Assembly (NCBI GenBank): GCA_009746045.1
Contig: RPFO01000418.1
Coordinates: forward strand, 270,501-334,500
Reading direction: 5' to 3'
Source: Mesostigma viride
Taxonomy: Eukaryota > Streptophyta > Mesostigmatophyceae > Mesostigmatales > Mesostigmataceae
Length of the DNA: 64,000 bases
The number at the start of each line of letters is the position of its first letter. The first letter of the stretch is position 1. The notes below the pieces were generated by a model. That model saw nothing but the letters and a program-made list of their open reading frames with translations. It ran no database searches and was not told the origin of the DNA. Shown one piece after another: positions 7,181-56,142 of the stretch. The position numbers were made by a program, and so were the translations under genes.

Positions 7181-8035
7181 AACGTTCATACTGCGTGATT
7201 GTATGGCCATGGGCTGCGTCAAGCGTGCTTTCAAGCTTATACGGGTGAGTGAAGAATCTTGGTGATAAACCACTGTCATCATGTGCCAGCAAGTATGTTG
7301 GCCATGCCATGGCAAGGCAAAACAGTGTTAGCCATCTCTATTCTTGCTAAAAACACTGAAATATGCTTAACCTACCCATTATATTGGTTGTTAAGGCTTA
7401 TAATAAAACCCTTTGTAGGTAGGTATCAATGCCCATTCCCTACGTGCGTGCATAGGCTCTCACACATATACTAAGGCAGAATATAACTGCAATATGATGA
7501 TGCAAGTATGTTGTCCTGTTATGCTAGAAGGGAAATGAGTTGATTGGCATGGTTGGTTGCCACGGTGGTGTGTAGTGTGACCGCACTTAACATGCTTGCA
7601 CATTGCTAGCAACCTCGAAACCCATTCTTAGGGCTGGTGGTTTTTGGTGAGTTTCAGGTAGAGGCTGTGGCCAAATCGAGCCCAGTTTTTCGCCATGTTT
7701 CAAGAACTATATTGTTTACACGCCTATATTTTCAACATGCATATGGATTTTATTGAATTTTCCCAACTCGTCCTTCCACAGAAAATTGCCAAATCGCGAG
7801 TATGGGTTGACACCCTTGTAAAATTTTACATGAGTTGGTCAACATATGGTTTTTTAGGCATATGCCCAAGCATTAGCATGAGTGCCATTATGCATATCAA
7901 ACATATGGTGACAATGGGGTACCCCCCTGCCCTTACCACTACTTGAGCTTGAAGTCAGTATACTCAGTCCTAAAAATAGGACTGAGTTTTGACGTACGAC
8001 GTGTTAACCCATTCCTCTACAGCCAATCTGAAGCC
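7181..8035. other. AT-rich sequence, no gene seen
   Basis: No family motif, tandem repeat or terminal repeat pair was recognised. Short ORFs (60-83 codons) at 7259-7474 and 7695-7946 have no support beyond being open. Confidence 0.5.
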
Positions 8036-8885
8036 ATCACCCATTTTAAGAACCCCGCCAGCGTTCTGCAATCCTTGACTATATCATCATATAGGACTTA
8101 GGTGACTGGGCTGCGATGTCAAACCTTTTTAGACCAAACGCTGCTAGGTGCTGTTGCTGATTATGGATGAGAGAGGATACACAAGGTACTTCCAGACCAG
8201 GAGGATATTCAGGGTTTACGCCAGCAATGTACGCATCTAACCCTGCTGTGATTTTGTCTGAGGGAATAGTGAAGTGATCCAGGTTCACCCCTCCTAGGCC
8301 TGCGACTTCCAACCTCTTGACTGGAGATCAGCACGCCTGGATAAGACACCAAGGGTTCCCCCAGTAAAAAAGCATTCCCCTGGTACCCTTGAACTACATG
8401 AAACGGTGTGGGTATTCCCATGATGGGTAGCATCACCATCCCCATGACTTTAAGTGTAATTTGCCTGAGAAATCTGATACCTAGCCCAATGATGGTGAGG
8501 GTAAAAGTTCTAGGCCAGGAAGGGCCTGACCTGTGCCTGTGTGTCCACTTGTTGCCAGTGTCTTAGGATCCTGGAGGTTTGTACTCACAGCTTTTACCAG
8601 TGCCTTCCCTGACGCCACCGCAGCCTTTAATTGGTGGGCTTTTATCAGTGCTTTCATCACCTCAGCCAACTTGTGCTCGGGGACCACAGGCACTGTTGGT
8701 AGGTTTGGTGGTAACTGTGCAGGATCGAGGTGGAGCGACCTGCCCCTCAGCCAGCGCATTTGCTGTTGTTGTTTCCATTGGGACCCCCCCCGCTGGACTT
8801 GAGTGTACCGGAGAGTGGTTGACTCTGGTAAAATATTGTACGGACCTTTGCCGCAGGTGGCAAAAGGTTTTCGCACAATATTTGT
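8036..8885 (-). pseudogene. Copia pol relic A, downstream half (integrase C-terminus, protease-like domain, start of RT)
   Basis: Minus-strand frames at 8481-8885 carry an integrase C-terminal segment (KPFATCGKGPYNILPE), and 8209-8445 carries a protease-like block (LPIMGIPTPFHVVQGYQGN). The latter aligns by eye with LIPILGVPTPFQVVEGYKGN at about 17700 and with SIPILGQDTAFCVLEGYQGP at about 46680. The upstream half of the same Copia copy is at 14698-14890; the RTE LINE at 8886-14697 splits it. A TACAT flank is seen on both sides (8882-8886 and about 14690), a likely TSD. Frames are broken. Confidence 0.75.
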
Positions 8886-14697: not shown

Positions 14698-14890
14698 CAT
14701 AACTCGGTCCTTCTCCCGGCTCAGCTTGGCAGAAGAGACATGCATGTGCTGCTTAATTGCTTCCACCCCTCCAGCACATGTGCAGGATACACGCCATGAT
14801 ACAGACCCACTGGGCTGACAGCAACTCCATCAAAGTAGAAATTAACTCTGCTGTTCAGACGCAGCTCCACCACGTTCCTCAGCCATGCAA
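14698..14890 (-). pseudogene. Copia relic A, upstream half (integrase fragment)
   Basis: The plus-strand text CGGTCCTTCTCCCGGCTCAG and TGGGCTGACAGCAACTCCAT match, with few changes, 47360-47500 inside the Copia integrase gene of the large LTR element. It is the upstream neighbour of the fragment at 8036-8885, displaced by the RTE LINE. No open frame of useful length remains. Confidence 0.75.
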
Positions 14891-15829
14891 GTTATGCACT
14901 TGTTGCGATGTGAATGCGAACGTGTGTTTGATTATGCAATGGCTGGCATATATCAATCCATGCAAGCTTGCCAAGCTGCATGCATGGGCACATAGGTTAG
15001 GGTAACCTAGCAATCCTGCACTAGTGCTAACCAATGAGGTGCTGGCTCCGTCCAGCCAGATCTCCTCCAGCTAGGACTGATCCCGATGCCCACAGGCACG
15101 ACTGCCTAACAGCACTACGTGGATGGGTCCTGGACCTCTCCTAGGACCTCCATACAGGACTAGCTATGCAGCCCACCTTGTGGTCTGCCTCACAGCTCAT
15201 CACCCTACCACGTGCGTATCACGTGCGTGTGCCCTACAGATCTCTATGCAAATATCTAGCAGCCTCCCACGTGCCCAAGATAGCACGTGCAGATCTAAGT
15301 CTAGTAGTAGAGATCTGTCCAGTGTACTACACCACCGTCCAAGTCCGTACCCCACTTGGGAGACGGAGACAACGCCACGTATACAGATAGTCTAGGCCTA
15401 GCTGACTCCCTGGAATAACTCCCATTATTATTTTCTTTGGGGAGTGAGGGGAAGACTCTTCCCACAACCCACTCAAATGCCAACCTAATGCTTGGAGACA
15501 AGGCCCCCACAGGGACAAACCAGTACACTTGAAGAGATGCATTTTAAAAGCTCTTAAGTGTTGGAAAACACCCATACTGGCTGTATGCCTGCTTAGTAGG
15601 AGAACCAAGTCAGAGAAAAAGACCACACGTTTTATCGAAATAACAACATGAAGCCATCATGCCAGGAGGACCCTTCTGACCTCAATCTTTAATGATTTGA
15701 AGAGAGTCTACGGGTGGACACTTCAATCCTTGCCACCCCATGAACACCCTCCTATCTGGAGCTAGCTACCCTAGGCTGAGGCACTTCACCCTCTGCCGCC
15801 ATACGGGTTCATTAGCTTGTATAGAACTC
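14891..15829. other. No gene seen
   Basis: Sequence of mixed composition. Short ORFs at 15123-15395 and 15327-15626 have no family features. Some of it may be the 3' untranslated region and LTR of the Copia copy to its right, but no repeat pair was found. Confidence 0.4.
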
Positions 15830-18520
15830 TATACTGAGGCCCTGCAGCCTGTGGCATGCACTTTAGTCAGTGCGTCAGCTAGGCATTGTCCGGGTCCTTG
15901 ATGTGAGTCTTTGACTCCAGATAGGTGCGATCCTGCTTGAGGACATTCCAGTCCAGATCAGTGTGCACAGCCAAGGGGTTGTCCAGGAAAGAGAGAATGG
16001 ATTGACTGTCAGTCAGCAGATGAGATTTGACACCAGCATAACTACCAGCCTGATGCTGCAACCACACTGGTCAGGAGATGTTTCAAGTACCATGCAACAC
16101 AGAAGACACCACAGCTCGGCATTCTGCTACATTGCTGCTGACTGCCTTACGCTTGTGGAGCCTGCTGAACGTACCAGGAAACCATTGACTGCTTGCCATG
16201 CAGTGGGATTAGACACTGACATGAAGAGACCTGCCTCTCTGGCTTCAGTGGCTTGTACCTTGATGACTACCCGGGACTCGATCCATGGAAGTGTCCATCA
16301 TGCATGTGATGTGAATGGGTTGGAACAGATCCAAGGAATGCATGAAGAATAATAAGGGGAGGACCATCATGCAACACCTGTTTGATAGCCCTAGACCCAA
16401 CCATTGGAGGCTCCATGAGACATCATCATCCACCCTGCTGACCACTGCCAGATGAGGAGCACACGTGGCACACAGCCACCCTAGTTTAGCTCTAATGGTG
16501 GGATAGAGATCTGGAGTGATGTCTGAGGGAAGAACATCTTTACAAGACGTGACATATTCAGAGGATGCTTTGAGAGTCTGAACACGCCCTGGCACTCCTT
16601 CTGTTCCTTAAACAGGCTCAGAATGATGCCACAAAACTTGACAGTATCTTTCCCCAACTCCAGCTGCTTGCCTAGTTCAAAGCTAGCAGACACTTGAGCA
16701 ATGAAATCCTCCATGCACAGCTGCCCTGCTGGGACCGGTAATGAGTTGATCATGATCCCCATGCCACACAAACATCATCAAACCAGCAGGATGAGGAATG
16801 GTGAAGAAACAGGGATCAATATCATCATACTGGGCCCCCAGCTTAAGGAAGACCTCTTGGGCACTATACAGCCTAAAGATTTTAGGGGCTGACTGTAACC
16901 CTTTCACCCCCAGATTGGGTCTTAGGAGACCTGTACGTGAGGCTCCTTGATTGCCCCAGCCCAGACCTTGGGAGTGTTTACCACATAGACTTGCCCCCTC
17001 CACACTTTTTGAGCGATGTCAGGGTTGCCTTTTAGAAAGCTAGGCTCTGTGGCTTTACACACGTAGTCCTTGCCAGCATTCAGATGGTGAAGGAAAGTGG
17101 CCAGCAGACGTTTGCTGAATACCAGGGGTATACAGTTCAGCCGCTGTTAGCTCAGTGGAGCCCCTGAACTCCGTGACACAAGGTCTGGCATGAGAAATGG
17201 ATGGAGTCCCATCCGCCTGGGGCTTATGCTTGCAGACAAACTTCAGTCTGAGCTTCTTGGCCCCTTTTTTTGGCAGTGCCTCATGATTGGTGTTTAACAG
17301 GTGGTACCTGTGACTTACTACGTGGATCATGCAGGACACACCCATTCCTCTCTAGCCCTGTTAAAGGCCGCTTCCATCCACTTCAGAAAACCAATCTGCG
17401 TTTGACAGTCTTTGACCACATCATCATAGGACAAGGGAGACATGGACGCAATGTCCCATCTACCAAGCCCAAATGCAGAGGGGTGTAACTTCTGAGAGTG
17501 AATGAGGGATTCAACACAGGGTTCCTGACCTGGGAGGTATTTTGAGTTTACAGCATTGATGGCTGCTTCAAGTCCATATCTGATCTGTGTTATAATAGCA
17601 ATTTCAAATGGTCCAGGGTAATTACCTGCCCCACCCCTGTCACACTCAACCTCCCCGCTGAGATGACTACTCCAGGGTAAGAGACAAATGGTTCCCCCAG
17701 AAGTGCATTCCCCTTGTAGCCCTCTACTACCTGGAAGGGAGTGGGCACACCCAGAATGGGGATTAGCACTTGGCCTTTGACTGCCATTTTTGTTTTGCCT
17801 GAGAAATCTGACACTCTAGCCCATGGCGAGCGTTGCACTATAGACGTAGGCCAGATACAGCTTGTGCACTGATGATGCTCACCTGTGCCTGTGTGTTTAC
17901 TGCACCAGTATACTGGGATCCTGGCTATAGAGTCACCTACAGCATTGACTTTAGCTGCACCTGCTGCCACTTGTGCCTTGGCAGTATGTGCTCTGTGCAG
18001 AGCAGTTTTAGAACCTCAGCAAATTTATTCCTGGGGACCACAGGATCTGCTGCTATTAATTGTGGCTGTTCCTGGGATGAGGCCGGGAGGAGCTACCTGC
18101 TGCTCACCCAGTGCACGTTCCTCCTGCCCAGGTGGACTGTTGGGCTGTGGCGGGGCTTCACCACTGATCGAGGAATACAAGTGCGTCTATATGGTTGTAT
18201 TGCTTGCATCAGCTATGCCCCTGGCCAAATCACTGGGTGAGACCATCCCACCAGACTGAGCTAGGCTCTGAATCCATGTCCGAGAATTCTACCCCTGACA
18301 CGTCTGCCAATGGAGGGTAATGAAGCTTCAGCCTATGCTTGCCAACCATCCGGCCGCTCTCTGTGCGCATGATGCTGGATAGTCACTGTGTCACCTGTTT
18401 CTGACAGCTTCTTAGTGATTACAGCTGGACCATGCCATCTACCAGAGTGGGCTTTATTCCCTTCCCCCTCCCTGTAATAGAGCATGCACTTGATCCCCCA
18501 CTTCAGTGTTTTTTTTAGTG
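15830..18520 (-). pseudogene. Copia pol relic B (integrase C-terminus, protease-like domain, RT, RNase H)
   Basis: Right to left, broken minus frames show an integrase C-terminal segment (GRWHGPAVITKKLSETGDTV, about 18400-18500), a protease-like block (LIPILGVPTPFQVVEGYKGN plus ALLGEPFVSYPG, 17640-17840), and the RT start (KLRLKFVCKHKPQADGTPSI and ELTAAELYTPG, 17100-17260). Further along come RT palm pieces (GLQSAPKIFRLYSAQEVFLK and FVWHGDHDQLI, 16690-16900) and an RNase H tail (LAVHTDLDWNVLKQDRTYLE, about 15900-16000) ending in an ADALTK-like motif near 15860. Many frame changes: a dead copy, diverged from the pol at 44846-48336 but collinear with it. Confidence 0.8.
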
Positions 18521-18750: not shown

Positions 18751-18923
18751 ACTAGAATACTACTATGAGTACTACTATGACTGACTGACTTACTGACTGC
18801 ATAGTGCATGTACGTAGAGCCCATCGGATACATCTTGCTGTGAACTCACGCATAGGTATCCGATGATGCAACCGTCCATGTCCCAGTGCCCCGACAGTAC
18901 CACCGATACTATATATATCCGGC

Positions 18924-24115: not shown

Positions 24116-24840
24116 ACGAAAACCTTAAAAAAAACACTGCCTCACTTCAAACACAGGCCTGGCATTACTCTTATCCTTTTTTGCCAGCAACTTGGCCAAG
24201 TGCTTCCTTTGCGTGTTGTAGTGGTTAGGAATGATAATGCACGAACGCGGCAAGGCTGATTGCTTGAGAGCACAGGATATGATTGGCAATGAATTGCCTG
24301 CTCATTAGGAAATAGGTTTACCCTTTATCAACACGTTCCTCTCACTGCATGGCTGCGCCGCCCGGTGACCGGTGGGTGCAGACCGTTGGCCCGGCGAGGC
24401 CGCACGATGCATGACAGGTATAGCAGTCTAGTCACAGCATCCTGTGATCCCAGATCACTCCACTCTGCAGTATACGTTCCCTATCTACGATACTCTATAG
24501 TACCGTCCAATGTCAGGACACTGCGTATACTGGGTACTGACATCTAGCTGTCACGTACCCCAGTACCCAAAGTACTGACGTACCTACTATCTAGGGAAAC
24601 ATATGTGTGACTCGACTAGCCGTCCTATCTGAATAGCCCACGTGGTATTTATATTCACATACCAACGCAGGTTTACAAGGCTTATTCATACGCTGTATTC
24701 ACAGTGCCTTTCAGAGACTTCTGCAGCAAAGCATGGAGACTAACTCCAGTTTTATTTTATTCTTTATTAATTGTTATGCAGGTCTGCACCCGGCCCCAAC
24801 ATTATTGTTATTGTTTTTAAGTTGCATGATGAGGGGTACC
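24116..24840. other. No gene seen
   Basis: No long ORF, tandem array or recognisable TE fragment was noticed in this stretch. Confidence 0.5.
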
Positions 24841-25189: not shown

Positions 25190-25750
25190 ATTTGTTCATA
25201 CACTGACTCTGATGGAATAGGGGTTCATGTTGTCAAAGAGTAACTGGTACGGTGTACTGAGGTCCAGCAGAATCCCTTAGCTTGGTCAGGGAGTCGGCCA
25301 GGTTATTGGCGTCTTCCACATGTAAGTAAGGACTTGCGTGTCATGCGCAAAGGCATGCCACGGAGTACTATGCTAATCTCATTAGAAAAAATCATTACAC
25401 AAAAGTTTAAACAAATATCGTCTGCATCATTCCCCAACCATTAAGCACTAGATGGGGATGTAATCCTCGTCCGAGCTGTCCTCTATACTGTAATGGCAGA
25501 CGAGGCGGTAGTGTAGCGCCTATCCTCAGGGCCAATAACCTCCACCTGCGGACTTCTACCCTGGCTAGCTAGCAACGGGCCGCGGGGGGCGTGGGGAGAA
25601 AACAGGAGCATACCCCTCAGGAAGGTGCTTATCGCAGATGGCAGCCCATTTCTCCTTGTCAATAATCTTCTACATGGGTCCAGCTGGAAAAATATGTGGC
25701 CTCCTGTTTGAGGATCACCCAACGATCCAAGTCAGTGTGGACACACTAGG
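25190..25750 (-). pseudogene. Copia RNase H/C-terminal relic C, split by ~320 bp
   Basis: Minus-strand text near 25250-25330 encodes HVEDANNLADSLTKL, equivalent to HIPGVDNPADALTKL at the end of the pol at 44846. The segment at 25680-25745 encodes VHTDLDRWVILKQEATYF, equivalent to VHTDLDWNVLKQDRTYLE in relic B. In an intact gene these would be nearly adjacent, so 25345-25675 is probably an insertion. No usable frame remains. Confidence 0.7.
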
Positions 25751-37560: not shown

Positions 37561-40491
37561 TCAAAACTCGACGCCACCGAAGTGGCGCCGGAAAGCCGCT
37601 GGGTCAAAACCCAGGGCCTGAGCCCAGAGGGCGGGTGGGATGTCGCGCCCCAGGAGGCTGCGGTGGAGGCCAATGTAGCGCGTGACCGAGAGGGCCGAAG
37701 CCCACCGGCCGCGCAGCTGGATGGCCTCCGGCGACTCGCCAGCGATGGCGTCGTGCGTCGCCCCCCCATGCCGGAGGCTGTGAAAAGAAAACATCCCTGG
37801 GATGCTCATGCGGGCCTGCACAGCCTCCCACTGCTGCCTAGCCTGGCTGTACGTTAAGCCTCGAAAGAGGAGTGCATCCGGGGGCTGGCCAGCCGTCAGA
37901 CGTCGCAGGAGCCACAAAGAAAGTGGATCCCGGACGAGGACGTGCTGGGCCGCCCCCTGCGCAGTTTTGGGGTTGCGCAGCACAAGGGCACCGACCATGG
38001 GCCCTGGCTCGAGAAGGGGGTGGCCGGGATGAGCCACATCCCGAACCCGCAGCCCTAGCGCCTCGCTAATGCGTAAATACTGCTGGAAAGCAATAATAAT
38101 CAACGCACTCAAATGCACCTGTCGACGTGAAACTAGCAACAGGGCAGTGAAATAGCAAAGGCGCCAGGGCATAGGCGGAGGGCTGACAGCCGGAACAAGC
38201 CGCTGCCAACCTGCTAGCAGGCGGTCCGCCAGTACCCAATTCCGAACAATGTCGGGGTAGTACAGGTGCAGACAGGCCTTGGCATGCTGGCATAAGGTAC
38301 GCCCCCGCCCGCCTCTGGCATGGTAGACAGCAGAAATCCACTCACAGAAAATGGCTTCGGCGTCAGCTGGGTCGACAGGGCCAGGTGGCGCCCACGCCAC
38401 GTAGACAGCCGCCGCACGTCGGTACGCTGGCAAGGTAGACACAGGGTTGACTGTGCCCTCCAAAAGTGCCAAGTCCCGAGGGCGTCGCGCCCCCTCAGGC
38501 CCAGGGTTGGGATGCACGTCACCACACCGGGTCAAGTCAGGAACCCAAGCGCCACGCCGACTGGCCTTGTCAGCTGGGTTGTGGTCGGTAGCCACCCAGA
38601 CCCAGTGGCTCTGCATGTCGCCAGCCAGTGACAGAGCGCAGTAGCGTCGAACCAGCTGGTTGAGACGGTAGGAAGACGACCGCCCTCTGACAAACGCCCC
38701 CACCACAGCACTGGAGTCTACGAGCCGGACGACTCGCTTACCCCGACACGCCTTGGTCCGGCACGACCACTCGACCCCCTGTGTCGCAGCAATCGCCTCC
38801 TTGACGTTGATGTGGTTAGGCTGCCCCCGCCACCGGTAGGACAGTGCCGTACGCCAGTGGCCACTATCCAGCAGGCTGTAGTCCCCCTCCTCCATGCGCT
38901 CCAGGTCCCAGTCCTCCCCAGACGTTAAAGCTGTCGTCCGCCACCCCCGCGCTTCGCGCCGGGTCGCCAGCCGGGCACAATCGGCCCCAGGCAGGTCCCT
39001 GTAGACCACCCCACCGCCGGAGCCGCTCGCATCACTTGCGACGACCCGGTCAGAAAGGGGCCGGGCCCTGGCCGCCCTCAAAAAGGGGGCCAGGTCGATC
39101 GCCGCCTGAAGCTCCTGGCGGGCCCCCGCAGGGAGGCGCCAGCGGCGCCCAGGCAGGGAGGCATTCATGGCTGCTAGCAGCCGGTACGTCTCAGACCACA
39201 CCGAAAGCATGGGGCGGCACAGCAGATGCATCCACACCCACTTCCCAAGCACAGAACTAAGTTCGCGGTAGTATGTAAACCCGCGATCTAAGATTCTATG
39301 AGTAGCGGCGATAACTGCCACCACACGCTCAGGAACAGGCACCACGTCACCATCCCTTTGGTGAATGACCCCCACCGCCTGCACACCAGTCTGCTCTGCT
39401 GTCGCCCGTACCACCTTGTCAGACTTCTGCACCAGCCCAACAGCGGCGTAGGCAGCCTGAACACGATCTAGCTGCTGATTCACCCCATCCACCGACGCAC
39501 AGTGGGTGAAATGGAGGTCATCGATCGTCACAGCATGCATACCTTCCAGATCCTGCCGAGATTCGAAGCACGGCGAGGGCGCCAAGGGCGCAGCAGGGTC
39601 CTCCTCCAGCCTCAGCCGGACGGTCTCCCCCGCCTCGTTGGCCTCCGCCACCAGGATCAGCGCGGACATGTTGATGCTCAGCCCACGACTAGCCTCCAAC
39701 GGCGGCTTGGGGCCACAGCGGTACAACACAGACTGATGCACACACTGGGCCACCGCGACGGCCAGCTTGTTGCCCATTGGCCAGCACAACATCCACGGCC
39801 ACACCTTCCGACGAGCCCCACTCAGGCCCACCAGATCCGACCACACCGGCATCCACGCACAGTACCGCCGCATCCAAACTGGCAGGCGGAGTCTGTTGTA
39901 GTACGAATCCAAATCTGATACGCCCCCAAAAACATCCTCCCCAGCGCGCGTGGGCAAATCGCAAATCACGCCAAGGTGTGGTAAAAAAGCGGGCATAGGA
40001 TCAGGTAGTGGCATGTTGCCACGCCGGTTGTCCACAATCAGCCGTATACGGCCGTCGGGCTTTCCGACCCCAAAAGTACCGTTCACCATAGGCGGCTCCT
40101 CCTCAAAAAATCCACCCAAAATCCCCCTCTCCACACACACCGTGCAAACCCGCGCGAACTCCTCCATGCTACACCCCCGCGAGATCCGCATCGACTTCTG
40201 CAAGATCCGCTCTGCTGGGCTCAGCGTCCGTACCATCCTACTCTCATCATTCAAAATTGCTCCCCAAGAGGGGGGTAGTAAGTTCAGCACATCCACTTGG
40301 CCACCTTCCCCCGGACCAGGCAAAGCCAAGCGTGCGGCCACTAACGGTTCGTAAGGGGCTCCTTCAGCATATTCACCCCCATCCACTACAGATCCTGCCA
40401 TTGCCGCTACGGAACCACCGTTCCGGCGGACAAAGGACCTGCAAGCATCATCGATCCCATCTAGGGCCGCCTGCTGCAGAGGCCCGGGCAC
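37561..40491 (-). CDS. RT - RNase H - 2A-like motif - tyrosine recombinase polyprotein (976 aa)
   Basis: Intact ORF. Residues ~130-400 are reverse transcriptase: GKPDGRIRLIVDNRRGN, SDLDSYYNRLRLP, and the catalytic box TIDD with Asp324-Asp325. RNase H follows (VVASDASGSGGGVVY; NVKEAIAATQGVEW; VRLVDSSAVVGAFV; VATDHNPADKASR). At residues 657-665 is CGDVHPNPGP, a 2A-like motif, exactly between RNase H and the last domain. The C-terminal ~310 residues are a tyrosine recombinase: YLRISEALGLRVRDV, HSLRHGG (His904, Arg907), GRW and catalytic-type Tyr939 in VTRYIG. The protein copies the element's RNA and integrates a circular intermediate. ATG 40491 is the start; the preceding gag-like ORF ends at 40688. 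Confidence 0.9.
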   Translation of the reverse strand: MPGPLQQAALDGIDDACRSFVRRNGGSVAAMAGSVVDGGEYAEGAPYEPLVAARLALPGPGEGGQVDVLNLLPPSWGAILNDESRMVRTLSPAERILQKSMRISRGCSMEEFARVCTVCVERGILGGFFEEEPPMVNGTFGVGKPDGRIRLIVDNRRGNMPLPDPMPAFLPHLGVICDLPTRAGEDVFGGVSDLDSYYNRLRLPVWMRRYCAWMPVWSDLVGLSGARRKVWPWMLCWPMGNKLAVAVAQCVHQSVLYRCGPKPPLEASRGLSINMSALILVAEANEAGETVRLRLEEDPAAPLAPSPCFESRQDLEGMHAVTIDDLHFTHCASVDGVNQQLDRVQAAYAAVGLVQKSDKVVRATAEQTGVQAVGVIHQRDGDVVPVPERVVAVIAATHRILDRGFTYYRELSSVLGKWVWMHLLCRPMLSVWSETYRLLAAMNASLPGRRWRLPAGARQELQAAIDLAPFLRAARARPLSDRVVASDASGSGGGVVYRDLPGADCARLATRREARGWRTTALTSGEDWDLERMEEGDYSLLDSGHWRTALSYRWRGQPNHINVKEAIAATQGVEWSCRTKACRGKRVVRLVDSSAVVGAFVRGRSSSYRLNQLVRRYCALSLAGDMQSHWVWVATDHNPADKASRRGAWVPDLTRCGDVHPNPGPEGARRPRDLALLEGTVNPVSTLPAYRRAAAVYVAWAPPGPVDPADAEAIFCEWISAVYHARGGRGRTLCQHAKACLHLYYPDIVRNWVLADRLLAGWQRLVPAVSPPPMPWRLCYFTALLLVSRRQVHLSALIIIAFQQYLRISEALGLRVRDVAHPGHPLLEPGPMVGALVLRNPKTAQGAAQHVLVRDPLSLWLLRRLTAGQPPDALLFRGLTYSQARQQWEAVQARMSIPGMFSFHSLRHGGATHDAIAGESPEAIQLRGRWASALSVTRYIGLHRSLLGRDIPPALWAQALGFDPAAFRRHFGGVEF

Positions 40492-40687
40492 ACGGGCTGA
40501 ATCTACAGCAGGCGGGTCTCGCCCCCCCCCCCCATCCAGTTTAACGCCCTAACCGTCTGACAGGCTAGTGTGCGAGCATTAAAAGCCCGACTCATCCTAT
40601 CGCGCCTACGGCCTGAGCGTACCTGCTGCCACCAGTCACGAGGTGGCAGGGGTGCTGGAAGAGGTAGTGGAAGAAGGCACCGCTCCC

Positions 40688-42729: not shown

Positions 42730-43470
42730 GTCCTCGGTCGCATTCATGCATGCATTCGCGTATCCATGCATGCAATCACTTCCATCCCTGCAAGCATTCA
42801 CGCATCCATGCATGCAAACACCATCCATCCACGCAAGCATTCACGTATCCATGCATGCAAACACCATCCACCCCAAGCATTCACACATTCATGCATGCAA
42901 ACACCATCCATCCATGCTAGCATTCACGTATCCATGCATGCAAACACCACCCATCCGTGCAAGCATTCACGTATCCATGCATGCAAACACCATCCACCCA
43001 GGCAAGCATTCACGTATCCATGCATGCAAACACCACCCATCCGTGCAAGCATTCACGCATCCATGCATGCAAACGCCATCCACCCATGCAAGCATTCACG
43101 TATCCATGCATGCAAACACCATCCACCCCAAGCTTTCAGGTATCCATGCATGCAAACACCACCCATCCATGCATGCAAACACCATCCACCCATGCAAGCA
43201 TTCACACATTCATGCATGCAAACACCATCCATCCCTGCAAGCATTTACGTATCAATGCATGCAAACACCACCCATCCCTGCAAGCATTCACGTATCCATG
43301 CATGCAAACACCATCCATCCCTGCAAGCATTCACGTATCCACGCATGCAAACACCATCCATCCCTGCAAGCATTAATGCAATATCGATTCGTGTAATTAG
43401 CACCCATCCTGCGAGCATCCATGCAATTACCACCCATCCTGCGAACATTCACGTGCAATCCATGCATGCA
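42730..43470. repeat. Minisatellite of ~40-45-bp units with CATGCATG cores
   Basis: About 16 units of AAGCATTCACGTATCCATGC, ATGCAAACACCATCCA plus a short spacer. Long Thr/His/Cys-rich ORFs in several frames are translations of the repeat. Confidence 0.95.
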
Positions 43471-44845: not shown

Positions 44846-47800
44846 TTAGACAGCTTGCTGAGATGGGTCCATCAGAGACTGAAGAACCTTGTATTGCACT
44901 GCTGCCTTCTGCACTAGCTTGGTCAAAGCATCAGCAGGATTGTCAACCCCAGGGATATGCTCAATATTGGCCAAGGAGGACAATTCCTTAAGAAGGAGAT
45001 AATCCAAGTCCCTACTTCTGGCCACTATGGCATCTGCCTGTGCACAAACTGCACCATCCCCATGGAGTCTGTTTTGAGAAGAGTGGTGACCTGAAGTGGC
45101 CAAGGAGTGTTAGAAGTCATCTGATGAAGCAACTCCTTCAGATAAAGGCTTGTGTGAATGCCTTCACAAATAGCCCTGCATTCTGCCACATCACTGCTGA
45201 CAGCCACCCGTTTGTGCAGGCGACTAAACCAGCTCACCAAACTCCCCAGGCCTTCCTGTCTGAGCACAAAGAGCCCTGCAGCCCTGCCCCTGACCTTGGA
45301 GACCTGCCTGCTGTCCATTGAGCTATCCACATACAGCTCCATGCAAATGGGTTGTGATAAATCCACTGCAGACAACAGAATGCCGGATGAAGCCCTGACC
45401 TGATCAGCCACCTTGGCAGACCCTAGCTCCATCAGCATGTCATCAGGCAACCTGGCTATGACCATAAGGTCTGGCCTGGAAATGCCTGCCACCCAAGCAA
45501 CCATGCCCCTCACCATGGGACACAGTGCCTGTGTGATGACTGGAGGAAGCTTGCTAATGAGGGTCTCTTGATAATCATTGCCCCCACCAGCAGCATACGC
45601 CACTCCCCCCCTTCTTCACCAGTGTGGCCTCCATGCCCACAAACAGCAGAGGCTCATTCTCCACCTGCCATTGCTCCCTACCCAGAGGAAACTTGGACTT
45701 AATGATGGAGATCAGCTCCTTAAGCCACGACGTGGGAGCCAGCAGATGTAGGTCATCCCCGTGCAGCGAAGCATACACTGGTAGGCCTTCCCATTGCCCC
45801 AGAAACAGACAGGGGTCTACAGGAGAGACCTTCAAGTTGCAATGCTCCTTCAGGAAACGGTTGAGAGTCTCCCTCCAGATTATTGGACTTGACCTCAGGC
45901 CCTCCAGGCCCTTGAGGATTTTAAGGAACTCAGTGTGAATGTCCCTTTTCCATACAGCAGGCACCCTGACATAGAAAGGCGTCTTGCCCTCCCACTTTTC
46001 CTGTGCCACATCTGCATCCCCTCCAGAAATGCCCTCTTGAAGTCTACCACCACTGAGCCATAGTCCAAGCCCTTGTTGAGAAGGCCTAGAAATACACACA
46101 GCAGCAGCCTCCAAGTGTCATGCAGCATGCCAGGGGTATACAACTCCTCAGCAGTGCACTCACCAGTACCCTTGAACTCATTCAGCACTGGCCTGACATG
46201 TGGTACCTTGACCCCGTCCACCTCCTTCATCTTGATGACAAACTTGAGCTTGAGTAGACGTCGTGCAGGAGGCAGGTCATTGACAGGTTCCACGCATTTC
46301 TTGGAGATCCAGTCCTCCCCAGATTTAATCAGACCCAGTGTGACCTGGGGACACATAATGGGAGAGGACATGAGCTTCACCAGGCCTTGGTAGTTGATAG
46401 GGCTGTGTCCAGCAAGTGAGTGAGGACCAATGCCCAAACTGCTTGGATGACTAGCAGCTGGCAATATGAGGTCATCAACCAAGGGCTCCTGCCCCTGGCA
46501 CACTTGCACACGCTTAACCGTCCTGGTTACTGCACGTGATAGGTGAGTGGTCCTGAAATTAATCAGTGGGACCTGACCAGCCCCTTCCTTAGTCAGGAGA
46601 GAGGACGTGATCACTACCCCATCCTGGCATAGGAAATTCTGCCCCAGAAGAGCAGGTCCCTGATAGCCCTCCAAGACACAAAAAGCAGTGTCCTGTCCAA
46701 GGATAGGAATAGATACCTCACCCAGTACCTTCACGTGTACCCCGCCACTGAAGTCAGACACAAACTGATAGCTGGGTTCAGTCATGCTGTACCCTGCTGC
46801 AGCTCTGGTCCCAATGATGGAAACCTGAGAATTAGTGTCTACCTCTAAGGCAGTGTCCAGCCCCAGATTGCCATGCCACCTGAGCTTGGCTACCTTGGGC
46901 TGCTTCTTGGCTCTTTGCAGAGCCCCAATCAATCCAGCCAAACTTGTCCCCCTGGGCTTGGTTAGAGCCTTGGGCTTGACAGTTGACTCCCCAGCTGTTG
47001 ACCTTGCAGCCTGTTCAACAGGTACCTCTGCAACCTGGCCAGGGCTGACAGATTCCCCTGCAACAGATGTGGTCGTTGCATCAGTGATGTCACTTGGGAC
47101 CTGAAAATCCTGCAGATCCTGTGAGCCTTGTGCCTGACTGCCCTCATTCATCAGGTTAGGCTTGACATATGACCAACTCAGCCGGTGTACATGCTTTGGT
47201 TCGTCCTCCATGCTGACCAAGCATGCGTGGCTAGCTTCATCAACCTGGGTAACCACCCCAGGACTCCAGCTACCACGTTTGCCATAAAGGCTAGGTTCCT
47301 TCCAAGCTAGGACCTTCTGACCCACTTGTGGCTCCAGCATCTTCCAACCCCGGTCCTTCTCCCTCAGCTTGGCAAAGGTGACATGTGCAGCATGTTTCCA
47401 GCCCTCCAGCACATGTGGTGGGCACAGGCCATGATATAGACCCATTGGGCTGACAGCAACTCCATCATAGTAGAAGTTAACCCTGCTGTTCAGCTGCTGC
47501 TCCACGTTCCTCAGCCATGCACTCCTGACAAGTGCAGGTGCAGACAAGGGTACCCAGTCTTCAGAGATGATCAATTTCTTGACCTCCTGGATTGCCCTCT
47601 CTATAGCACCCTGCTGCCCATGAGCCTCCCTAGGTGTAACCAGCAACTCAGGAAGGGTGGGATCACCCTTGAGATGCTGAAACTGCATGTCCACCTGGAT
47701 CCTTGTGGTAGGAAACTTGGCTCTTACATTCTGCAGGGCAGCCAGCAAGTACCTGTTCTTCATAGAAGGTAAATGCTCTAGCACCTTGTACTTTGTGTAC

Positions 47801-48336
47801 CTGTCCACGCACACCAACAGTTGCATGCCCCTGATGTGTTGGATATCACACTGCAGATCACCAATGCTCTGAGGTAGAGCTTTGGCATGTGATTTCCTGG
47901 GCTTGTTGGAGGACAACTGGCACTTACACCGTGAGGCAGCTTGCTGACACGCCTTGAGAAGGGGTGCCCTGCCCATACGGAAGGCAAAGTTGTTTGACAG
48001 AGAAGTGGCATGCCCAAACATGTTGTGGATTCGGGCACCCAACTCCTGGTACACAGAGGAAGCAGTCCCTGGCACAGTCAGGACTGTGCTGTCAGGTTGT
48101 CCAGCATCACCATGCTGTCTTCCATCCTGTTCTGACTCAGAGCCTGAGTCACCCTGCTCATGCCCAACACCTGGACCGCCAGCAGGGACCACATGCATAC
48201 CACCAGAGGCCTTCACACCCCTCTGTGGTTGTACATTGGTTTCTCTCAAAATGAGAGGTCCACCCTCGTGCCCAGCACGAGGATGCATGGGGTCAGACAT
48301 TCTTACAGCTGCACCAGCTGTCAAGGACGTCTTCAT
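44846..48336 (-). pseudogene. Copia pol: integrase - retropepsin-like - reverse transcriptase - RNase H, with three homopolymer frameshifts
   Basis: The frame from ATG 48336 has an HHCC-like zinc region (HNMFGH ... CKC), an integrase core (DIQHIRGMQLLVCVDRYTKY with Asp164; RIQVD with Asp216; AHGQQGAIERAIQEV with Glu246), and a C-terminal SH3-like part (SWSPGVVTQVDEASHACLVS). A retropepsin-like domain follows: VDTNSQVSIIG, with Asp500 and Asn where Gly is usual, and ALLGQNFL. Then come RT (KLKFVIKMKEVDGVKVPHVR; VVVDFKRAFLEG; LHGDDLHLLA) and RNase H (ELYVDSSMDSRQVSK; VAVSSDVAECRAICEG; HIPGVDNPADALTK). Frames change at C4 46018-46021, C7 45605-45611 and C4 45058-45061; a one-base length change in each run restores the frame. 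Protease after integrase is not the textbook Copia order. Confidence 0.85.
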
Positions 48337-48475
48337 AGGAACCTGTACCTCTCCAGGTGACCTGGGGCCACCTGAACCTGGAGATCACCCTCTTGTTGCC
48401 CAGATATAAAATCTGCATTGGAGCACCTGGCCTCCCCTTGGGTGAATTAAGGTGTGTAGGGGTTGCCTCAGACAG

Positions 48476-49583
48476 TCACTGCTCCTTGTTGTCTTCTTGC
48501 TGACTGCCCTTTGAAGGCTGGCCTGCCTGGGACTTGTTCTTGTTGTTGTTTTTGTTGTTGTTATTCTTGTTGCTGCCCTGGCCCTGGGTCTTCTTGAAGC
48601 TGGGACACTCCTTCTTGATGTGCCCCCACCCCTTGCACAGGTAGCACTGGATCTTTGCCCTGGCCTCCTCCCCCGTTGTCAGGCGCGTTACCCTGCCTGG
48701 GCTTGCCACCCACCCTCCTGAACACCGACTTGGCATGTGATTGCCCGTCAGGGTCGGGTGAATGGTTGGCCTTCCGCTTGTTGTGGTTGCCCCCGCGTCC
48801 TCCTTGGCTTCTGTCAGCCTCAGGCGCCTTGGAGCCCCCCTGGGCACGCCCACCTGCGTGGGTAGCCTTCACAGCTGGCACTCCACCCTCAAACAGCTCC
48901 TCTGCTTCGAGTGCTTGTTTGATTATGACCTTGTAGGCCTTGAGGGTAGAATGTGGGGCACACATGACCTTTAAAGAGCCACGTGTAGCCTTGTCCAGCC
49001 CAGAAACCTTGAGCCAGTTTGTCAGGGCTATGTTGTCAGCAACATTGAAGCCATGAGCCCTGCCCTCCTCAACCATTTTACAATAGTTAAGGAAGTTCTG
49101 GATAAGGTCTCCTTTCACCTCCCACCCCTGGTATTTATCCTGCCAATGGATCCCCACTTTCTTCCGTTGATCCTCTAGCAGCTCCCTTAGTTCTGCCACG
49201 TAGAGTGCCCAGGCCTTGTTGGCCTTCTTGCACTCCCTAGTGAGGTCCTTTATCTGATCTGTACACTTGCCAAAAGTCTGGCTACCTATCCAGATCTGAT
49301 AATAGTTTGTACCACCGTACAAGCTTGGAAACCCCTCTAGCCCCTCCACAAACTCCTCAGCCTGCTTGGGCTTTGAGTCTGACGTGACAGGTTGCAGTTG
49401 ATTAACAATAAGCAGACCCTGGGTGGTGAGATCATATCCAGAGACAGCATGTGTATTATTATTAATAGGTACGTTGGTAATCTCGCCGGTAACCCCCACG
49501 TCATCTACGTGGGCGGTTCCACTACCTGCACCTCCATTATTACCACTGGCTGGAGCACCCTTGCTACGGCGCCCGTCCGCCAT
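48476..49583 (-). pseudogene. Copia gag with CCHC zinc knuckle, one frameshift
   Basis: Starts at ATG 49583 (MADGRRSKGAPASG). It has a capsid-like helical region (EEFVEGLEGFPSLYGGTNYY; LRELLEDQRKKVGIHWQDKY; HSTLKAYKVIIKQALEAEEL) and a basic Gly-rich segment. After a frame change near 48680-48720 it has the knuckle CYLCKGWGHIKKEC (48620-48665) and an Asn/Lys-rich tail ending at 48476. No protease lies between the knuckle and the gag stop, and pol opens 140 bp later at its own ATG. The frame break sits in G-rich sequence and may be an assembly error. Confidence 0.8.
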
Positions 49584-49747
49584 GATGTACAACAAGCTGC
49601 CTTAGCAAACACCTGAGTAAAGCAGCAAAAGAAAGTATGTACAACTGTCGACTAATGCCGCTTGCACCGGTGTCGCCGCCGCCCCCGCGAAACGCCGCTG
49701 AAAAGTCGACTAAACGCCGACGAGCACTGGAAGAATGGCCGACTTAT

Positions 49748-51283
49748 TCAGTAGTCGAGGCCGCGAAAATCACAGTACTCATTACAATTCGTTCAAGTGG
49801 CCCGCCGGAGCGGCTGTACAATTTTTCCCAGTGAGCGCGCTGCCAAGTGTACTTGTGGGCAAATTTTTAGGTGCCCCGTCACTTCGAGGTACTAAAAATT
49901 AGGCTACGGTACGAATTCAGCGAATTTCAGCGAATTTTCAGTCGAACCAAAGGAAGTGACGCCAACTACCAAAAAGTTTCCGTTACGAATTTTCAGCCCA
50001 ACACTCGCGCAAAATGAAGTGACGGCAACTACCAAAAAGTTTCCGTTACGAATTTTCACTCCCACACGTTTGCACAAGAGGAAGTGACGGCAACTACCAA
50101 GCAGTTTCCGTTACGAATTTTCAGTCCCACACTTCGCGCAAATTTTAGTAGGGCTGCACGCAAGCTACCTTTCAAAATTTTGCGCTAGTATGGAACGCAT
50201 TTCATTCGTCTGGAGGAACGCTGCCCGCCAACTACCCCCGTTCAGAATGTTCCGCCGAAATTTACTTGAGATTTGGAAATCTGAACGTGCGCGCAAATTT
50301 TAGTAGGGCTGCACGCAAGCTACCTTTCAAAATTTTGCGCAAGTATGGAACGCAATTCATTCGTCCGGAGGAATGCTGCTCGTCAACTGCCCCCGTTCAG
50401 AAAGTTGCGCCGAACTTTACTTGAGATTTGGAAATCTGAACGTGCGGCTGGAGTTTCGCGGGGAAACCCAAGTTCCCTAGTAATTCACCAATGACGCGCT
50501 TCGAACACTTGTCCGCTAAAACCTAAGCAGCCGCTCCGGCTGGCCACTTAAACGAAACTTGATGTCATATGCGAACTCAGGATCCTCCATTTCCGGCGTG
50601 TGAGCCGGACCTGCACCGGTATGGATCAAAACCGGCGTATTCGCCGAGTTTTGCGTCGGATCGAAAATTGCGATACGCCGACGCGCGACGAGGCGCAGAG
50701 GATGAGTAAAAATGGAAAGAAGTTCCCAGCCCGCTGGGATCCACTCTCGCAAGGCTGCGAGAAATGCGACCAGGTTGATGAGGACCTGTCGCTCTCGAGT
50801 ACGAACGCCGCGTGTAAGCAGCGACAGCAATGCGAGGTCTTGAAACAAATTTGTAGTGACCACCGGCGCGCCCCCCGTGCGCGTCGAGGCCCAGTTTTGC
50901 AAGTTGCGCTGGTACCCGGTGAGCGAGGAAATTGCGTTGTCCACCTCCTCAATGGCGGTGGTGACTTCGTTCACCGAACGCAGGCCGCCTCGGACCTGAA
51001 CCGTAAAAGCCGAAAGAATATTTCGGATTTGGTCTAATGGCCCACGAATGGCCGGCACCAGCTGCGGCAGGCGGGGGTCCTCGGGAAAATCGCCGAGCAA
51101 TGGGAGTGCTGCTCGCTGACGACGATGTAATTCGTCGAGGGAAATCGTGACTTCGTCAAGCAAAGCTTGCCACGATGGAGCAGCCGGCGTTGGCTCACGC
51201 CGACGCGGAGTCGGTAACGGATCAGCCGGCGGAGCAGCTACCTCCTCATCCCGGGGAATGCGGAATTCTTCGGAATTTGGCAT
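49748..51283 (-). CDS. Extra 5' ORF of the Copia element, unknown function, split by MITE X
   Basis: The ORF starts at ATG 51283, 25 bp inside the 5' LTR (MPNSEEFRIPRDEEVAAPPA), and is open to the MITE boundary at 50569. If the 782-bp MITE and one TCAT copy are removed, the frame reads EFAYEYCDFRGLDY and stops at 49748. The protein would be about 250 residues: an acidic Pro-rich start, then amphipathic helices (LDQIRNILSAFTVQVRGGLR; VNEVTTAIEEVDNAISSLTG; LINLVAFLAALREWIPAGWE). There is no zinc knuckle, protease or nuclease motif and I know no match. It lies where gag would be expected, while a normal gag follows. It could be an extra structural or chaperone protein, or a captured gene. Confidence 0.6.
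49783..50564. mobile_element. 782-bp MITE 'X', copy 2 (inverted relative to copy 1)
   Basis: Same terminal inverted repeats and interior tandem units as 29297-30077, opposite orientation. A TCAT duplication at 49779-49782 and 50565-50568 fits restoration of the interrupted ORF. Confidence 0.9.
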
Positions 51284-51307: not shown

Positions 51308-51921
51308 AGTTGTGAGAGAGTTGCCCTGAACTCCGCCATGGTTCTTGCAGGAATGTTGCCTTTATTAAGAATAAGGAACACAGACGTAAGTCACGTCACT
51401 TCCAAGACTGCACGCAGCACAGGCGACAGGGTCGCAGTGCCAAGAGAACGTGCACGCAAGAACTAGCGTCCCGGTGCTACCAAGTCACACATATAGGTTG
51501 CTAGGGACGCGTCCAAGTATTCAGCTGCACTGTCACAGCTGAACTGTCAATCAATTGATTACACAGACTCTGGCACGCCTTTGGCGCGCAGATCTATCAA
51601 TTGTCTATACGGCTAGTCCTGTGGACCTATCCGTACACTGCTCAGCATCAATTGTCCCATAGGTCCTGGTGCGCTACAGCGCGCCTACCTATCAATTGAC
51701 TATCAAGTCCTGTACAAGTCCTGTCAACGTCCTGCGGACTATCAAAGTGACACTTGTACATCCTGTGTCCGTACGCGCCCACAGTGGCGCGCCGGGTACT
51801 GTCGGCACAACCTAGGAAACGTCATAACTTTTACGTTCCTTAGCCAAATGAGGCGTTCAAGGTGCCGTTGGAAAGAGCGTAACAATCTCTATCCATCCAA
51901 CGTAAATCCTTTACGTTAACT
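51308..51921 (-). repeat. 5' LTR of the Copia element
   Basis: 614-bp direct repeat of 34527-35140, followed on its outer side by the ACTAC duplication and the remainder of the interrupted ORF1. Confidence 0.9.
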
Positions 51922-52676: not shown

Positions 52677-53904
52677 CTAGGGTGACCCGCTGGCTTCGCC
52701 CAGCCAAAAAAAGTGACTTTGTGGCGGTAGAGAGACCATGGAGGGACTGCCCGCTGCCCGCTGCCTTCTGATTGGTTGGAATTCCTTCCGCTCGCTTCGC
52801 TCGCTTGGCGCTTCGATCGGGCGTATTGGCGGTCAGTAGGTCCGCTTCTGTCGTATTGGCGGCCAGCCTTTCCTCCCCTCTTTGTATTGGTCGGGAAGTC
52901 GCGATGCCCTGAAACTTAAGTGTCGGATGACTACTCATTGCGAAATTAGTGAATAGGACTAGTGGCACCCGCTGGCTTCGCCCAGCCAAAAAAAGCACTT
53001 TGGGGCAGTTCAGGGCCTGCCCGCTGCCCGCTCACTGCGTAGTACGGGATGACTAGCTTACTACATCGCAGTAGTTACTGAAGTACTTGCGTTGTAGTGT
53101 GTTGCCCTTTGCCCGCTGGCCGCTACTCCCGCTTCCTTGGGTCTGCCCGCTGCTCGCTGCCCGCTGCCCGCTGCCCGCTGCCCGCTGCCCGCTGCCCGCT
53201 GCCCGCTGCCCGCTGCCCGCTGCCCGCTGCCCGCTGCCCGCTGGAATAATACGGTGCTCGCTTCGCTGGCGGATTGGTGCGCAGTACGCTGCCCGCTGCC
53301 CGCTGGAATATGTAGTACGGTGCTCGCTTCGCTGGCGGATTGGTGCGCAGTCCGCTTCCCGCTGCCCGCTGGAATAGTACGGTGCTCGCTTCGCTCGCGG
53401 ATTGGTGCGGAGTACGCTGCCCGCTGCCCGCTGGAATAGTACGGTGCTCGCTTCGCTCGCGGATTGGTGCGCAGTCCGCTTCCCGCTGCCCGCTGGAATA
53501 GTACGGTGCTCGCTTCGCTCGCGGATTGGTGCGGAGTACGCTGCCCGCTGCCCGCTGGAATAGTACGGTGCTCGCTTCGCTCGCGGATTGGTGCGCAGTA
53601 CGCTTCCCGCTGCCCGCTGGAATAGTACGGTGCTCGCTTCGCTCGCGGATTGGTGCGCAGTACGGTGCTCGCTCGCTTCGCTCGCTCGCGGTAGGGTGCT
53701 CGCTCGCTTCGCTCGCTCGCCGCGCGCAGCGCACAGCTCGCTGCGCTCGCCGTGCGCTGCGCGCAGGCCGCTTTCAGCGGCCGCTCGCTCGCTTCGCTCG
53801 CTCGCTGGGATTGGTGGTTAGTGATTCCGGTTGTTTTGGATTGGCGGGGAAGTCGCGATGCCCTGGATAGTGCGGGATTACCTTACATTGCCAAATTAGT
53901 ATAT
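52677..53904. repeat. Dimeric GC-rich insertion with CCCGCTG and ~70-bp tandem arrays
   Basis: Two diverged units both begin near ACCCGCTGGCTTCGCCCAGCC, then AAAAAAAG, at 52684 and 52968. Both include GGGAAGTCGCGATGCCCTG (52888 and 53849) and end in AAATTAGTNNATAGGA. The second unit is expanded by a CCCGCTG 7-mer array (53150-53240) and six ~70-bp repeats (GGAATAGTACGGTGCTCGC, TTCGCTCGCGGATTGGTGCG) to 53660. It sits in RTE 'A' with TATG-like sequence on both sides. An unclassified element. Confidence 0.8.
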
Positions 53905-54243: not shown

Positions 54244-54783
54244 AAACTTAGTTGTCCCGTGTTTTTTAAATTAGAACGCGATATATCGCGTTGTAAGCTT
54301 TTTTTAGAACGCGTATAGCACCTAAGGAATTTTTTTTTTCATGGTCATGTATATACTTTCCTTAAAGCCCATAAAGCAAAGAATTTTTTGAGCTACTCAG
54401 ACCTACAAAATGCTAATTCATTAGAGAGATACACTGGTTTGAATACAGGGGGGTCTGACCATGACCGCGATTTCTTGACCCTAGGTCACAAGTCATGTGC
54501 TTATTCACAAATGGTTCATGAAAAAAATCTGGCTTCTTGCACGAGCTATGGGCAACATATGCAGGCTCTGTGAAACAAAACTCAGGCCCATTGGGCCACT
54601 GGAGCTATTTTTCATTAGCATCACAATTACAACGCAGTACAACGCAGTGGGAAACATGAGAGCCCTTCACAACATGACGCAACGACCCGAGCCCCATAAA
54701 CGGGGCCAGAGTGAGCTTGGATGGTCAAAACGTTGAAAATAGGTGTTGTATAAGTTATACAGCATCAAACATGCATCAAACAT

Positions 54784-56142
54784 GCATCCTGATCTTCGTC
54801 GACTTCATCAAGGCTTTTGATTCTGTCCTCTGGGACGCTCTATGGGCTGTACTTGCTCGCGCTCGCGTCCCCACTCCCCTGATTACCGTCATCCGCACGC
54901 TGTATGAGGGGTCGACCACTTCGGTGCGCACTCAACACGGCATTACCCCGCCCTGCCCACTGCAGACCGGCGTCTGGCAGGGTTGCGTCCTGTCGCCGTA
55001 CCTGTTTATTATTGTAGTGGATTATGTTATGCGCCAGGCACGTGCTCGCTTTGCTAGCATTGCAGGCCGTTCCCCTGGCCTAGCGATCACGAACGAGCTT
55101 GGGGAAGGGGGGCCGACTAACAAGCAGAATTTACTAGCTGACCTCATTTATGCCGACGACATCACGCTCATCGAGAAGCCGGAGTCTGCCCAACTTTGGC
55201 TGGACTGCCTGGCGCTCGAGGCTCGGGCGGTTGGTCTAGAAATCAGCCCCAAAACGGAGGCCCTGGCCCTCGGCATGGCAGGGCCCCCACCCACACTCCG
55301 CCTCTTAGACGATGCCGAGGTCAACTACCCTACTTCAGGCCGCTTCAAGCTGCTCGGCAGTTGGCTTCCCGACTGCGAGGACGACATGACGACACGGATC
55401 GGCATGGCGTGGGCGCACCTCCATGACCACCGCCGCTGGTGGAGCAACCCCACCCTACCCCGGATCGTCAAGCGTGACCTCTTCAAGGTCATCATTCTGA
55501 CGATCCTGACCTACGGCGCCGAGACGTGGACACTGATGCAGGAGCTGGAGCAACGACTCGACGGCGCCGTCACCAAGATGCTGCGCAAGGCCCTTAACAT
55601 CCCCTTTGGTTTGCACATTAGTAATGAGGATTTGTACGCTGATTTGCCCTATGTTTCCCACATTATTAGGCACAGGCGCCTGGGCCTAGCCGGGCACCTG
55701 GCCCGCACAGATCAGGTAGATACATCAGATAGACTAGCTGGCACCAAGCCGGCCCAGCCTGGGCGATATGTCCTAACCTGGCGTGCCCCCGGCCGCGCGC
55801 GGCAGGGCCGCCACCCGTGGACATTTCGTGATAGACTCGGCATGGACATGTGCTACACTAGACGTGACGGGCTCACCCCCGGGCACCCTCCTGGTTTGTC
55901 TGTAATATGGAGGCAGATGGTGCGCAAGGATAGATGGCAAGTAGTGATGAAGGAGACCACCCCCAAGCCTGTGGGGGCTCCGCGTGTGACCAAGTATGGC
56001 ATTCATAGCGATTCGGGCCGCGGTGCCCACACCCCTGTAACTAGGACCTAGATAGCTTATACCATCCATTCCATCCCATGTTCCGCTCCCACTGAGGGCT
56101 TATGCTCACGTGACGCAGTCACGTGTCTATTAATTAATTAAT
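54784..56142 (+). mobile_element. 5'-truncated RTE LINE 'B'
   Basis: The target duplication GCATCAAACAT at 54773-54783 and 56143-56153 bounds it (a further copy at 54762 suggests a pre-existing repeat). It begins at the same RT region that reads ILIFVDFIK and ends in the CACGTGACGCAGTCACGTG hairpin and an ATTAATTAATTA tail. Confidence 0.9.
54787..56051 (+). CDS. RTE reverse transcriptase C-terminal two-thirds, open frame
   Basis: An uninterrupted frame from the truncation point to a stop at 56051 (about 420 codons; 446 if read from 54711, upstream of the element). It has palm motifs ILIFVDFIKAFDSVLWDALW, TGVWQGCVLSPYLFIIVVDY and YADD (55149-55160). It continues through KLLGSWLPDCEDDM, ILTYGAETWTLMQELEQRLD, and the C-terminal HIIRHRRLGLAGHLARTDQV. 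This intact copy is the reference showing where the MITE and frameshifts fall in the RTE gene at 10886-13736. The fingers and endonuclease are absent, so it cannot act alone. Confidence 0.85.

Follow-up and report, generated by a model that had tools for sequence, protein, structure and literature searches.

A retropepsin-like block between integrase and reverse transcriptase in Copia-type elements of Mesostigma viride

Where does a Copia-type retrotransposon carry its protease when the stretch between Gag and integrase appears to hold none? The question is raised by a long terminal repeat (LTR) element on the reverse strand of a 64,000-nucleotide stretch of the genome of the streptophyte Mesostigma viride (assembly GCA_009746045.1, contig RPFO01000418.1, positions 270,501 to 334,500; hereafter the window). 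A sequence-only reading of the window had placed a block with the motifs VDTNSQVSIIG and ALLGQNFL past the integrase C-terminal domain and before the reverse transcriptase (RT), and had seen no protease-like sequence between the gag zinc knuckle and the integrase. Both observations held, the first in the pol of the window copy, in an uninterrupted copy elsewhere in the genome and in diverged families, and the second in the two families in which it was followed up. The explanation that we favour, at a probability of about two in three, is that these elements form a Copia clade without the usual Gag-integrase protease, and that a Gypsy/retroviral-type retropepsin between integrase and RT, with an Asp-Thr-Gln or Asp-Thr-Asn active site, would work as their dimeric protease.

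Position of the block in Copia-type elements

In the window copy, which belongs to what we call family A, the pol open reading frame (ORF) carries the integrase HHCC region from residue 120, the integrase acidic residues at about D180, D232 and E262, and the integrase C-terminal region to about residue 409; VDTNSQVSIIG follows at residue 515, ALLGQNFL at residue 578 and the RT from about residue 711. The pol of copy L031 is an uninterrupted ORF of 1197 codons with integrase, block, RT and RNase H, its RT matching RVT_2 at an expectation value (E) of 5.1e-6, below the cut-off. Three diverged families, A, B and E, show the order integrase, block, RT. In family B (L043) the integrase, the block (VDTQAQVSIIS...ALLGEPF) and RT-RNase H lie in overlapping frames, and in family E overlapping pieces of one place, with frame breaks, hold the integrase core and C-terminal region (L057), the block (L051) and the RT (L056). 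A fourth family, D2, has the block (L052) and then the RT (L058), its upstream side lying outside the sequence read. Downstream of a family-D block (L055) no RT was seen by eye in any frame, and L055 does not test the order.

Copies were sought in 440 Mb of genome sequence in 2243 contigs. The window pol protein recurs at 96-100% identity at at least 55 places (scored among 8454 candidates), part of which may be duplicate contigs, since two copies (L033 and L034) have identical flanks. Two further relics in the window had been read as showing the same order. One of them, a family-B element (relic B), bears this out, with an integrase C-terminus at 18485-18257, the block at 17903-17623 and RT and RNase H at 17282-15789. 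The other (relic A) does not: no match to an integrase C-terminus reached E <= 0.01 there, and since it retains only the block and the following linker it is not an independent witness of the order. Outside the host genome, scans of viral contigs (with L031 pol, A2, A3 and A8) and of a set of genome contigs without relatives of the host (with A2) returned stretches of pattern and no relative, and tblastn against phages found none.

Upstream of the integrase, no protease model matched at E <= 10 in the pieces scanned from families A and B, and PF22936 (Pol_BBD) matched none of their gag, knuckle-to-integrase and pol pieces at that limit. The glutamine-rich gag piece of L043 gave low-complexity chance matches, among them one peptidase propeptide domain at E 1.2. 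A protease hidden upstream of the integrase was rejected as a candidate: the stretch from knuckle to HHCC measures 560-582 nt in 41 family-A loci and about 115 aa in L043, and no protease model matched in the pieces of it that were scanned. PF22936, the Copia protease model, is itself plentiful in the same genome, with at least 150 matches scored of 490 candidates and scores up to 62 bits. Among the matches listed (150 of PF22936, and 100 of 1485 of the block), inspected by eye, no block had a PF22936 match on its own strand at a distance of 8 kb or less.

The order of integrase before RT, together with the RVT_2 match, supports the assignment of the lineage to the Copia type. Integrase lies upstream of RT in L031, in L043 and across L057-L051-L056; the RT is of the RVT_2 type, at 34.2 bits in family B against a cut-off of 31.6 and at 26.7 bits, below the cut-off, in family A; and LTRs with 5-bp target duplications are present. 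Two Copia conventions are departed from, namely the protease between Gag and integrase and LTR termini of the form TG...CA, which is the convention for these elements. Two features of the catalytic domains are recorded here in their own right. The RT catalytic box is HGDD, as LHGDD in family A (L031, and the window at 45752-45766) and WHGDD in family B (L043), where YVDD is usual in Copia. In the integrase core, 29 residues separate the second Asp from the Glu in families A and B (window 47599-47691; L043), and the DD35E spacing of integrases is longer than this.

Nature of the block and its putative active site

The block is very probably homologous to retropepsins, judging by the profile matches of its relatives. 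In searches of PDB (177,635 sequences, hits listed at E <= 10), profile A5, built from three sequences of families A, B and B2, had 11 matches, each to an entry named HIV-1 protease, protease or tethered-dimer protease, with E 0.037 at best. Profile A8, built from seven members, had four, to DDI1, DDI2 and a pair of tethered-dimer proteases, the strongest at E 0.31, with the block's DTQ aligning on the DSG of DDI1. In Pfam, PF13975 was matched by four of the seven block members, PF12382 by two and PF13650 by one, with a best E of 0.0024; the L043 block matched PF13975 at E 0.0083 and PF12382 at E 0.28. Two other Pfam families, FBA_2 and DUF1858, were each matched by one member (E 0.19 and 0.25), and NCBIfam and PHROGs returned no match for the seven. 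ALLG, the second, hydrophobic-hydrophobic-Gly motif, is invariant in 7/7.

The glycine of the catalytic triad, Asn in the window, was found to be Gln or Asn in nearly all matches genome-wide. The pattern D-T-x-x-Q-V-x-I-I has 1485 matches in the genome (control, 1), many of them near-identical copies and not independent; 830 read DTQ and 650 DTN, the other five being untyped, with one DTE in L054. A DTG version of DTxxQVxII occurs nowhere in the genome, D-S-G having been outside the search. None of the seven aligned members varies at the Asp or the Thr, and the Asp appears nearly constant, since the pattern TQAQVxII, which does not require it, has 833 matches against 830 for DTQxQVxII, the two patterns differing also at the fourth residue. 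The ratio of nonsynonymous to synonymous substitution (dN/dS) in the block was 0.07-0.13 in five of eight subfamily or copy pairs, those with dS above 0.9; two of the five exceed a dS of 2, where saturation is near, and individual sequences recur in more than one pair. Three close pairs gave 0.03, 0.13 and 0.32 on few changes. The block was clearly more conserved than the RT in three of five family comparisons, with identities of 46-51% against 29-38% (A-B, A-D2 and B-D2). Together, the low dN/dS and the identity between families indicate that the block is no decaying remnant and that few parts of pol are under stronger constraint. All subfamilies seen have the change from Gly to Asn or Gln as a fixed state, purifying selection acts on the domain, and the earlier suggestion that the site may be degenerate is not supported.

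Fixation of the change would leave room for a loss of catalysis, and the main rival of an active enzyme is a pseudoprotease, in which the retropepsin fold persists, catalysis was lost with the change of Gly to Gln or Asn, and the block serves RT or integrase as a structural or dimerisation module, with processing by a host protease or no processing at all. In favour of this account are the replacement of the glycine in every match and the position of the block directly upstream of RT in all four families read (A, B, E and D2). Against it, the putative catalytic residues, Asp and Thr, do not vary among the aligned members, the pattern without Asp is barely commoner than the pattern with it, and no other protease model was matched in the element. 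The near-invariant Asp and the lack of another protease match favour the predicted activity, whereas the lost glycine speaks against it, and we hold the pseudoprotease to be unlikely, if the strongest of the alternatives. The alternatives overlap with one another and with the favoured explanation, and their odds do not sum to 1.

If the block is a retropepsin, it could be either the Copia protease itself, moved from before to behind the integrase, or one acquired from elsewhere. The sequence-only reading had left the choice between transposition and acquisition undecided. A single internal rearrangement would explain both the loss at one site and the gain at the other. However, none of the seven block members matched PF22936, the retropepsin matches going to other models, and ALLG is of the ILG type: a review of clan AA, in its available text, gives ILS as the usual motif of Copia proteases and ILG for almost all others (PMC2642776). 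The motif and the absent PF22936 match would thus favour a Gypsy-like capture, and relocation seems distinctly improbable. Of the earlier proposal, the Copia type and the domain order stand, acquisition is preferred to transposition, and homology to retropepsins is supported by matches of relatives that are all weak or below the curated cut-offs. The fuller account, that a major Copia clade swapped its own protease for a Gypsy-like retropepsin, captured at the junction of integrase and RT and working there as an active, Gly-less Asp-Thr-Gln/Asn enzyme, is tentative, and we rate it somewhat below even odds.

Several results weigh against the retropepsin reading as a whole. The active-site Gly, normally conserved in retropepsins, is absent from the block. 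No retropepsin was retrieved by three of the five PDB profiles (A7 and A9 matched nothing, A10 a single unrelated protein, at E 1.3), and a PDB search with the entire pol sequence gave seven chance matches and no protease. The Pfam matches of the block's relatives are all weak and below the curated cut-offs where these are shown, and the window block alone matched no Pfam family. AlphaFold was uninformative, with a predicted local distance difference test (pLDDT) score of 34.8 from the single sequence and 35.7 from a four-row alignment of window fragments. No clear excess conservation was seen in A-E (block 46%, RT 44%) or B-E (block 61%, RT 73%), and the RT pieces of families E and D2 are short and frame-broken, which may have lowered their RT identities. 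Finally, the pre-integrase stretch was read in families A and B only.

These weak matches, the three profiles without a retropepsin and the failed fold prediction speak for another reading, in which the block is an unrelated conserved domain, such as a linker or a nucleic-acid-binding beta domain, whose likeness to retropepsins is confined to two short motifs. Against it, the matches of two profiles were all to protease entries, three Pfam aspartic-protease families were matched and LLG lies 65 residues past the Asp, and we regard it as still less probable than relocation. That the arrangement is an artefact of one rearranged or misassembled copy was rejected and is next to impossible; the sequence-only reading had likewise discounted a single rearrangement. 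The window copy does have broken frames and a truncation, but the block occurs in the 55 or more near-identical places, in 1485 motif matches and in the same order in diverged families, with chance excluded.

Family A, its Gag-Pol junction and the window

Among twelve family-A loci of about 9.9 kb each, LTR pairs were found in six, 97.0-99.8% identical over 526-625 bp; the LTR is about 617 bp long in most pairs and 526 bp in L041. Two more loci have short partial pairs (L036, 98.0% over 200 bp; L042, 100% over 183 bp), and no pair was found in the remaining four. By eye, 5-bp target duplications were read at four distinct sites, CTACC (common to L033 and L034), GAACG, TTAAC and TATAC, and the LTR termini at the four sites read (L032, L033, L034, L037 and L038) are AGTT...AACT. 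The near-identical LTR pairs and the duplications indicate that family A was recently mobile, with the block already in its present state. To this young LTR family belongs the window copy, which is truncated and has damaged frames. Its RT and RNase H are spread over other frames (45575-46117, 45025-45615 and 44846-45109), and in a blastn comparison its match to L031 ends at about 44402, so that it lacks the 3' end with the 3' LTR.

The gag of the window copy is out of frame with its knuckle; in L033 the natural gag, of 371 aa, includes the knuckle in its reading frame (zf-CCHC E 0.0052, below the cut-off). The Gag stop is a UGA followed by CUG UCU, and this context, TGACTGTCT, is present in 39 of the 41 knuckle-bearing family-A loci, or 34 of 36 distinct places once five places fetched twice are merged; L031, an extra locus, has no visible knuckle. 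Directly past the Gag UGA and in frame with it, pol reads on for more than 300 codons without a stop in 18/41 loci (16/36 places), and in the others, the window copy included, an earlier stop interrupts it behind the UGA. The conserved UGA CUG UCU with an in-frame Pol suggests readthrough of the stop codon.

A working element might be expressed as follows. Gag would be made alone, and Gag-Pol would come from leaky reading of the UGA, with C as the next base. Two Gag-Pol chains would then pair so that their blocks form a dimeric aspartic protease with two Asp-Thr-Gln/Asn loops, and this dimer would cut Gag and release the integrase on its one flank and, on its other flank, either RT-RNase H or a protease-RT fusion; the protease may stay on the RT, as in foamy viruses. 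Unlike canonical Copia elements, such an element would have no short Gag-protease product, because a protease behind the integrase is made only with the whole integrase.

Features of the family-A copy and of the two relics are collected in Table 1.

Table 1. Coordinates of the family-A copy and of two relics in the window.
Feature	Position	Strand	Basis
5' LTR (partial extent)	51336..51921	-	blastn match to the L031 LTR stretch
gag ORF, 346 aa; the knuckle near the 3' end is in another frame	48561..49601	-	ORF list
Gag CCHC zinc knuckle CYLCKGWGHIKKEC	48605..48646	-	zf-CCHC E 0.00074 (window frame), below cut-off
Gag stop UGA, then CUG UCU	48476..48478	-	context TGACTGTCT
pol ORF, 829 aa: integrase, block, RT start	45895..48384	-	ORF reading
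Integrase HHCC zinc-binding region	47920..48027	-	sequence
Integrase catalytic core D..D..E	47599..47853	-	rve (PF00665) E 0.026, sub-threshold; alignment to families B and E
Integrase C-terminal region, ends LSWSYVKP, upper limit approximate	47158..47382	-	alignment to families B and E
Retropepsin-like block	46552..46890	-	conservation in seven aligned members; retropepsin matches of relatives
VDTNSQVSIIG, putative catalytic loop (DTG position = DTN)	46810..46842	-	sequence
ALLGQNFL, hydrophobic-hydrophobic-Gly motif; Gly 65 residues past Asp	46630..46653	-	sequence
RT; LHGDD box 45752-45766; frame break ~46040	45593..46254	-	RVT_2 E 0.0014 (second part, below cut-off); tblastn with family B
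RNase H, split over two frames	44864..45549	-	tblastn with family B
Relic B (family-B element): integrase C-terminus, block, RT, RNase H	15789..18485	-	tblastn with family B
Relic A: block and following linker only	7963..8720	-	sequence comparison

Other features of the window are noted for completeness. Further short relics of the clade, of integrase (families A and B) and RNase H, lie at 14705-14889, 24143-24283 and 25236-25742. A 995-aa ORF at 37564-40548 (-) matches the tyrosine-recombinase family PF00589 at E 2.8e-6 and may belong to a DIRS-like or Crypton-like element, and RVT_1 reverse transcriptases are found at 54678-56048 (+, E 1.4e-17) and 12264-13742 (-, E 1.6e-13). A 656-aa ORF at 18867-20834 (+) with a RING finger (E 4.5e-11) is a possible host gene. 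An inverted pair of at least 721 bp, 98% identical (29360-30080 and 49780-50500), has one copy 5' of gag, and tandem arrays with periods of 43 bp and 62 bp lie at 42796-43460 and 53185-53735.

Relation to known systems and significance

With canonical Ty1/Copia elements (Pseudoviridae) the lineage shares the integrase before RT, the RVT_2-type RT, a terminal RNase H, a CCHC Gag, and LTRs with 5-bp duplications; it differs from them in lacking the Gag-integrase protease, in having a Gypsy-type protease-like domain past the integrase, in HGDD in place of YVDD and in AGTT...AACT in place of TG...CA. With the retropepsins of Ty3/Gypsy elements and retroviruses (PF13975, PF12382; clan AA, A2) the block shares the loop D-T-x-[AS]-Q-V-x-I-I, the hydrophobic-hydrophobic-Gly motif and a similar length, but the Gly of DTG is Gln or Asn and the position is downstream of the integrase in a Copia-type pol. 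The retroviral-like protease domains of DDI1 and DDI2 gave the best PDB matches of profile A8, weak ones at E 0.31, with VDSGAQ aligned to VDTQAQ; these are cellular proteins, and their site is DSG. Goodwin and Poulter reportedly described in 2002 Gypsy elements with a Copia-like pol order, integrase upstream of RT; that is likewise a rearrangement of pol, whereas here it is the protease that lies between integrase and RT.

In foamy viruses the integrase lies downstream of RT. Their protease is directly N-terminal to RT and is retained on it, which offers a possible analogy for a protease-RT product here, but they are retroviruses with a DSG active site, as far as the available text of two papers goes (PMC6669543, PMC8402755). 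A DSQ active site was looked for and not found in that text, which gives DSG. Gly-less motifs (DTR, DTE, DTD and DTV) are tabulated for human ERV-K proteases, some of them classed as potentially active, in the available text of another paper (PMC6058741). There they appear as scattered variants within a DTG family, whereas in M. viride DTQ and DTN are nearly the sole state and DTG was not found. The open PMC literature, Repbase and subscription journals being outside the search, returned no report of the order Gag-integrase-protease-RT-RNase H or of a DTQ/DTN retropepsin. This order, combined with a lineage-wide Gly-less retropepsin active site, is to our knowledge not known in any LTR element.

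The domain order of pol defines the superfamilies of LTR elements, and the DTG triad identifies retropepsins. If the favoured explanation is true, a young and successful clade breaks both, and annotation pipelines would probably label its members protease-less. It would also mean that the requirement for glycine at the third residue of the triad becomes directly testable, and that the protease module of an LTR element can be lost and then regained elsewhere in pol.

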